A DNA stretch of 64,000 nt from Burkholderiales bacterium (GTDB lineage: Bacteria; Pseudomonadota; Gammaproteobacteria; Burkholderiales; SG8-41), in contig JAUXYA010000029.1 of the NCBI GenBank assembly GCA_030684405.1, positions 83,147-147,146 of the forward strand. Direction: 5' to 3'. This document shows positions 57,176 to 57,751 of this stretch, piece by piece; the stretch's first letter is position 1; the number at the start of each line of letters is the position of its first letter. The notes under the pieces were generated by a model, which worked only from the letters and a program-made list of their open reading frames with translations, was not told the DNA's origin and ran no database searches. Both the position numbers and the translations under genes were made by a program.

Positions 57176-57751
57176 TCATTTCATCTTCTGCAGCACCTCA
57201 AGCAGCTCGTCGTTGGGCATGATGCCGCGTGGATCGTTGACGTTGGCGTAGCGGACGAAGCCCTCGCGGTCGATGATGAACCAGGCGCGTTTCGCACGCA
57301 GATAAGCGGCGATGCGTTTGCCATCCTTCGCCAGCGCGGGATCATCGTTGAGCACGCCGTAGGCGCGGGTCATTTCGCGGCGGGTGTCACTCAACAGCGG
57401 GAACTTCAGTCCGAGCTTGGTGGCGAACTCGGTATTGGCGGCGTTGAAATCGACACTGATGCCCAGGACCTGGGCATTGGCGGCCTCGAACTTGGGAAGA
57501 TCAAGCTGGAAGGCCACGACTTCGGTCGTTCACGTGTCGGTGAAGGCGGCGATGTAGAAGAACAGGACGACGTTCTTTTTGCCCAGATAATCCGCGAGTG
57601 CCACCGGCTTGCCGGTGGAGGAGTTCACGGAAAACGCAGGCGCCCGGTCGCCGGGCTTCGGCATCTGGGCCTGAGCGGACACGGCGAACAGAGTCGCGGC
57701 CCCGAGCAGGCTGGCGGTTATCCAGCGGTGCAGCAGTGACATTTTCGTCAT
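57176..57751 (-). CDS. AhpC/TSA-family peroxiredoxin, candidate selenoprotein (in-frame UGA at peroxidatic Cys)
   Basis: Signal peptide; FFYIAAFTDT-[TGA 57530-57532]-TTEVVAFQLDLPKFEA; both halves in same frame (57751-57517=234 nt); no other disruption. Confidence 0.88.
57482..57515 (-). promoter_or_regulatory. Candidate bacterial SECIS hairpin of the peroxiredoxin gene
   Basis: GGCCU-UCC-AGCUUG-AUCUUCC-CAAGUU-CG-AGGCC, starting 14 nt after UGA (hand-folded). Confidence 0.6.

Follow-up and report, generated by a model that had tools for sequence, protein, structure and literature searches.

Does a TGA codon that interrupts a bacterial peroxiredoxin (Prx) gene where the catalytic cysteine is expected encode selenocysteine (Sec, U), and how would the resulting protein work? 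The gene lies on the minus strand of a 64,000-nt stretch of DNA (the window) from a Burkholderiales bacterium of the GTDB lineage SG8-41 (assembly GCA_030684405.1, contig JAUXYA010000029.1, positions 83,147 to 147,146). An initial annotation, made from the letters alone, had proposed it as a candidate selenoprotein gene. Our analysis leaves very little doubt that Sec is encoded by this UGA and by a second one in an adjacent gene for a TlpA-like thioredoxin, and the sequences strongly support a two-gene operon for two exported selenoproteins.

A peroxiredoxin gene interrupted by TGA at its peroxidatic codon

The Prx gene comprises the following features:
57176..57751, minus strand: exported Sec-peroxiredoxin gene (AhpC/TSA, BCP/AhpE-like), 191 codons, U at codon 74
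57530..57532, minus strand: in-frame TGA at the peroxidatic position, interpreted as selenocysteine; TGA in every close homologue found (genomes and contigs)
57662..57751, minus strand: N-terminal signal peptide (ending LFAVSAQAQ), judged by eye
57758..57762, minus strand: Shine-Dalgarno sequence GGAGG, assigned by sequence, within a 20-nt intergenic gap

The initial annotation had joined two listed open reading frames (57530-57751 and 57176-57517) into one frame split only by the TGA at 57530-57532. This is correct: the frame from 57751 to 57176 is continuous and contains a single internal TGA, in the context FFYIAAFTDT-U-TTEVVAFQLDL, and the second listed frame has an internal GTG start after the TGA and is no separate gene. 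The terminal stop of the gene is a TGA too (57178-57176). Translated through the TGA, the gene gives a protein with matches to Pfam AhpC-TSA (E 2.3e-34) and Redoxin, and its predicted structure, with a predicted local distance difference test (pLDDT) score of 89.4, has BCP4 and AhpE among the top PDB matches. In both sequence and model, the AhpC/TSA domain and the fold are those of a peroxiredoxin. The proposed signal peptide is plausible, and hydrophobic leaders ending in AxA occur throughout the homologues. The mature part lacks Cys in 113 of 115 distinct sequences. The placement of the TGA at the catalytic Cys also stands as far as the peroxidatic position and the TxxU motif are concerned; the surrounding context needs correction to IxxxTxxU, in which the usual Pro is missing.

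A second probable selenoprotein gene lies directly upstream

The initial annotation did not report another gene with an in-frame TGA, which precedes the Prx gene:
57772..58290, minus strand: exported TlpA/ResA-like Sec-thioredoxin gene, 172 codons, U at codon 67 (RFWASW-U-SSC)
58090..58092, minus strand: in-frame TGA at the first position of a UxxC motif, interpreted as selenocysteine; conserved in genome and metagenome loci
58295..58299, minus strand: Shine-Dalgarno sequence GGAGG of the TlpA-like gene, assigned by sequence

It lies 20 nt upstream of the Prx gene on the same strand, and the TGA at 58092-58090 is its single interruption. The product matches Pfam AhpC-TSA, Redoxin and Thioredoxin_8; the best PDB matches of its predicted structure (pLDDT 89.5) are Geobacter 3kcm, ResA and TlpA. 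Its fold, (U/C)xxC motif and export, the last from a signal peptide judged by eye only, place it among the TlpA/ResA-like thioredoxins. UxxC is kept in all 91 distinct sequences, 88 of which contain one Cys in total.

The TlpA-like gene adjoins the Prx gene in nearly every locus with enough flanking sequence, with ~220-300 nt between the TlpA stop and the Prx UGA, and the pairing is kept in two families of the order as well as in many metagenome contigs. Other neighboring genes vary between lineages, as judged by eye. In the window, a 14-bp GC-rich hairpin (58394-58428), which scores as terminator-like on the plus strand only, separates the operon from an upstream TctC gene. The convergent neighbor at 55712-57121 (plus strand) encodes a DUF3095 protein (E 8.5e-121).

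Both TGA codons are conserved, and the host can decode them

The initial annotation had suggested checking whether homologues carry TGA at the same column. Prx matches were found in 50 of the 74 host-family genomes searched; 50 of the 52 matches contain exactly one TGA, and the other two are remote (38-40% identity). The gene is confined to the host family and one other (15 genomes) in an order-wide sample of 400 genomes, and to the host genome in a phylum-wide sample of 399. Among genome-derived loci, whose counts include some genomes fetched twice, TGA occupies the Prx column in 60, with TGC/TGT in distant relatives only, and the TlpA column in 51; one TlpA locus has TGC (L071, labeled Myxococcota on the tree). 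Metagenome contigs have TGA at the Prx column in 80/80 cases and at the TlpA column in 60/60. Conservation of the Prx TGA column is thus well beyond chance; no TGA codons are scattered elsewhere in the homologues. The ratio of nonsynonymous to synonymous substitution rates (dN/dS) is ~0.25 on either side of the Prx UGA, and TlpA has a value of 0.29. At its end, the window Prx gene has TGA as an ordinary stop, at a place taken by TAA or TAG in orthologues.

Where the Sec column differs, it holds Cys (homologues P0060, P0076, P0079 and P0087). Close Cys homologues, with YPGAFTNAC or YPGAFTNGC and thus Pro at -7, nest within the Sec clade at two places in the tree. Named relatives of the host lineage carry Burkholderiales or Betaproteobacteria labels. 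Some metagenome-assembled genomes (MAGs) titled, for example, Rhizobiaceae or Bordetella parapertussis (L054, L061, L062) have the operon, with a Prx 76-90% identical to that of the window; they look misassigned.

Targeted searches of the host genome (3.74 Mb, 99.4% complete) found all the Sec machinery that the initial annotation had listed for checking: SelA (E 1.9e-160), SelB (E 4.5e-130), SelD, whose own gene contains an in-frame TGA (GGG-U-GCKL), and a tRNA-Sec (75.9 bits, anticodon UCA). A third Sec-type redoxin, an AhpE-like Prx, has its TGA at FAFTGG-U-TNQV (G000 C14:62594-62971, L091), and an FdnG-like formate dehydrogenase has one at the Sec site NQARI-U-HSSS (G000 C6:45146-46588 region, L106). 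The host lineage has at least five genes with an in-frame TGA, two of them being the conserved exported pair. SelB matches occur in 67 of the 74 family genomes. Three genomes with the Prx TGA have no strong SelB match; SelA was found in one (G060), whereas no convincing SelA match came from G019 (84% complete) or G022 (74%), both incomplete MAGs. In the selA-selB cluster, selB is directly followed by a gene for a 301-aa thioredoxin-reductase-like FAD oxidoreductase (Pyr_redox_2; L002:6174-7079, minus strand).

Candidate SECIS hairpins follow both UGA codons

Each UGA is followed by a hairpin that resembles a bacterial selenocysteine insertion sequence (bSECIS):
57482..57515, minus strand: candidate bSECIS stem-loop of the Prx gene, 6-bp upper stem, loop 27-28 nt past the UGA
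58051..58070, minus strand: bSECIS stem-loop of the TlpA-like gene, 7 bp, loop CGUGCA, 26 nt past the UGA

The bSECIS model specifies a stem of at least 4 bp, a loop 16-37 nt from the UGA and a G in loop positions 1-2 (PMC13188914). The TlpA hairpin agrees with it in spacing, stem, loop and covariation. Its loop is invariant in all 75 distinct sequences, and two-sided changes occur at three pairs, with 98.7% of cells paired, a result unmatched by any shuffle. The window sequence has no stability excess over shuffles (z = -0.07); support for this hairpin comes from covariation, not from energy. Synonymous constraint 3' of the TlpA UGA is significant (p = 0.01). The Prx hairpin, a longer stem-loop, fits the model in stem and spacing, less clearly in its loop G, and covaries (two-sided changes at three pairs, 93.4% of cells paired); its window sequence has z = -2.74. 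An Rfam scan of the window gave no match. Together, the Sec machinery, the fixed TGA column, the Cys homologues and the covarying hairpins support the proposal of a selenoprotein.

Other readings of the TGA codons

A lone stop in an otherwise intact frame could arise from a sequencing error or mark a pseudogene. However, the codon is shared by well over a hundred loci and occurs in two adjacent genes at once, and purifying selection acts downstream of it; the many independent assemblies that agree on TGA refute both a misread TGC/TGT and a decayed gene, leaving this explanation a negligible probability. Reassignment of UGA to tryptophan (code 4/25) would account for JGI-derived proteins with TWTQE-type sequences at the Sec site. 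Yet all 80 related metagenome contigs checked, which were fetched with a JGI protein having W at the Sec column, show TGA there, so the W in these gene calls is a TGA read by another code. Moreover, many host genes, selB among them, normally end in UGA, the alternative residue in homologues is Cys, not Trp, and tRNA-Sec(UCA) and SelAB are present. Use of TGA as the stop of the same Prx gene refutes the reassignment, which we regard as extremely improbable.

Termination at the UGA followed by a restart at the internal GTG would yield the 113-aa protein that databases annotate. Many database Prx entries are indeed 112-114 aa long, and those that we collected (P0002-P0121; L107-L186) are either 113-aa GTG-start fragments or full-length JGI proteins with W at the TGA column. 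Such a product, however, would miss both the beginning of the fold and the catalytic residue, whereas the upstream part is under the same constraint as the remainder and bears the signal peptide. On these grounds we rejected the restart, which is very unlikely. The 113-aa truncations and the false Trp amount to a systematic annotation failure. Neither protein reaches the cut-off of the NCBIfam curated selenoprotein models: the PrxU model NF040737 scores Prx at 48 bits vs 270, and the WAxxUGC model NF041054 scores the TlpA-like protein at 70 bits vs 300.

A proposed mechanism and its weak points

We favor, with a probability of roughly 65%, a mechanism in which the operon with its Sec insertion signals supplies a Sec-Prx peroxidase and a TlpA-like reductant. 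The SelA/SelB/SelC/SelD machinery would insert Sec at each in-frame UGA, guided by the hairpin just downstream. As fold and position suggest, Prx would act as a peroxidase with Sec as its sole redox residue, the selenolate attacking the peroxide to give a selenenic acid. An outside thiol or selenol would then regenerate Prx; because mature Prx lacks Cys, the reductant must come from outside. The likeliest reductant is the co-encoded TlpA-like UxxC protein, which may transiently form a diselenide or selenenyl-sulfide with Prx before closing an internal Se-S bond. DsbD, encoded by a single gene in the host genome, could re-reduce the TlpA-like protein. It is about an even bet that the pair relays electrons in the periplasm through selenium alone, the Sec-TlpA being dedicated to the Cys-free Sec-Prx without Pro and forming a diselenide intermediate with it; such a relay would be common among uncultured bacteria and have escaped notice because gene callers cut Prx short or read Trp.

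Several observations weigh against this mechanism. The Pro of PxxxTxxC is replaced in all 114 Sec forms examined, mostly by Ile and otherwise by Val, Thr or Phe (position -7), so that Prx lacks the strict PxxxT/SxxC(U) motif. Thr at U-3 is present in 101 of the 114 forms and gives way to G (7), S (4) or A (2) in the others, and a few Prx sequences lack the catalytic-type Arg preceding the WFIID strand. These departures suggest that the substrate is perhaps other than hydrogen peroxide (H2O2). For the loop-G rule to hold in the Prx hairpin, the closing G-C pair has to be taken as open, and synonymous constraint 3' of the Prx UGA is not significant (p = 0.11). The assignment of TlpA as the reductant is based on co-occurrence and on the Cys-free Prx.

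Both proteins could thus be genuine selenoproteins while the Prx-like one is no peroxidase, reacting with another oxidant or catalyzing thiol-disulfide exchange, or while TlpA is not its reductant. The altered motif, with its universal loss of Pro and variable Thr, speaks for this alternative, which we consider possible but rather unlikely, as the sequence and fold are BCP/AhpE-like, Sec occupies exactly the peroxidatic position and the partnership with the TlpA gene is constant. Judged by sequence, a Prx-fold protein that works like a peroxiredoxin without the strict motif is probable.

Relation to known selenoproteins

Sec-containing peroxiredoxins and Sec-containing TlpA-like proteins are each known separately. 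The PrxU-type family (TxxU) has been verified experimentally (PMC13188914); it shares the AhpC/TSA fold, the peroxidatic Sec and TxxU with the Prx described here, which, unlike PrxU (PxxxTxxU in the same review), is exported, Cys-free and has Ile or another residue for the motif Pro. Prx-like thiol:disulfide oxidoreductases and TlpA-like UxxC selenoproteins have been catalogued (PMC13188914, PMC1088965); these have the same TlpA/ResA-like domain and UxxC motif, but here the protein is paired with a Sec-Prx. Ocean reads contain adjacent selenoprotein genes for Prx and SelW, plus one read with Prx and Prx-like 2 (PMC2398784), likewise two neighboring selenoprotein genes of which one is a Prx, whereas the partner here is of the TlpA type. 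A selenoprotein glutaredoxin that reduces a selenoprotein MsrA, described as 'tandem use of selenocysteine' (Kim 2011, as cited in PMC13188914), is a precedent for a Sec redoxin serving a Sec enzyme, but not for an exported TlpA/Prx pair. The 1-Cys peroxiredoxin AhpE of Mycobacterium tuberculosis is a close structural match to the Prx model (TM 0.90 by target) and also has a single peroxidatic residue, which is Cys instead of Sec. We know of no co-encoded TlpA partner of this AhpE.

The list of selenoprotein operons in a 2026 review (PMC13188914) does not include the TlpA-Prx pair, and the main text of the deep-Sep paper mentions neither Prx, TlpA nor operons. As far as we found in open-access papers, the conserved tandem operon and its Pro-less active site are new, as is the finding that curated family models do not cover it. 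In a 2006 survey, FdhA was the sole selenoprotein of Sec-decoding Alphaproteobacteria, Betaproteobacteria and Pseudomonadales (PMC1794560); the number of in-frame-TGA genes in the host lineage contrasts with this statement. The operon offers a natural system for testing the benefit of Sec to a peroxidase and its reductant jointly, and lets one ask why the Pro of the Prx motif, otherwise kept, goes when Sec is present.
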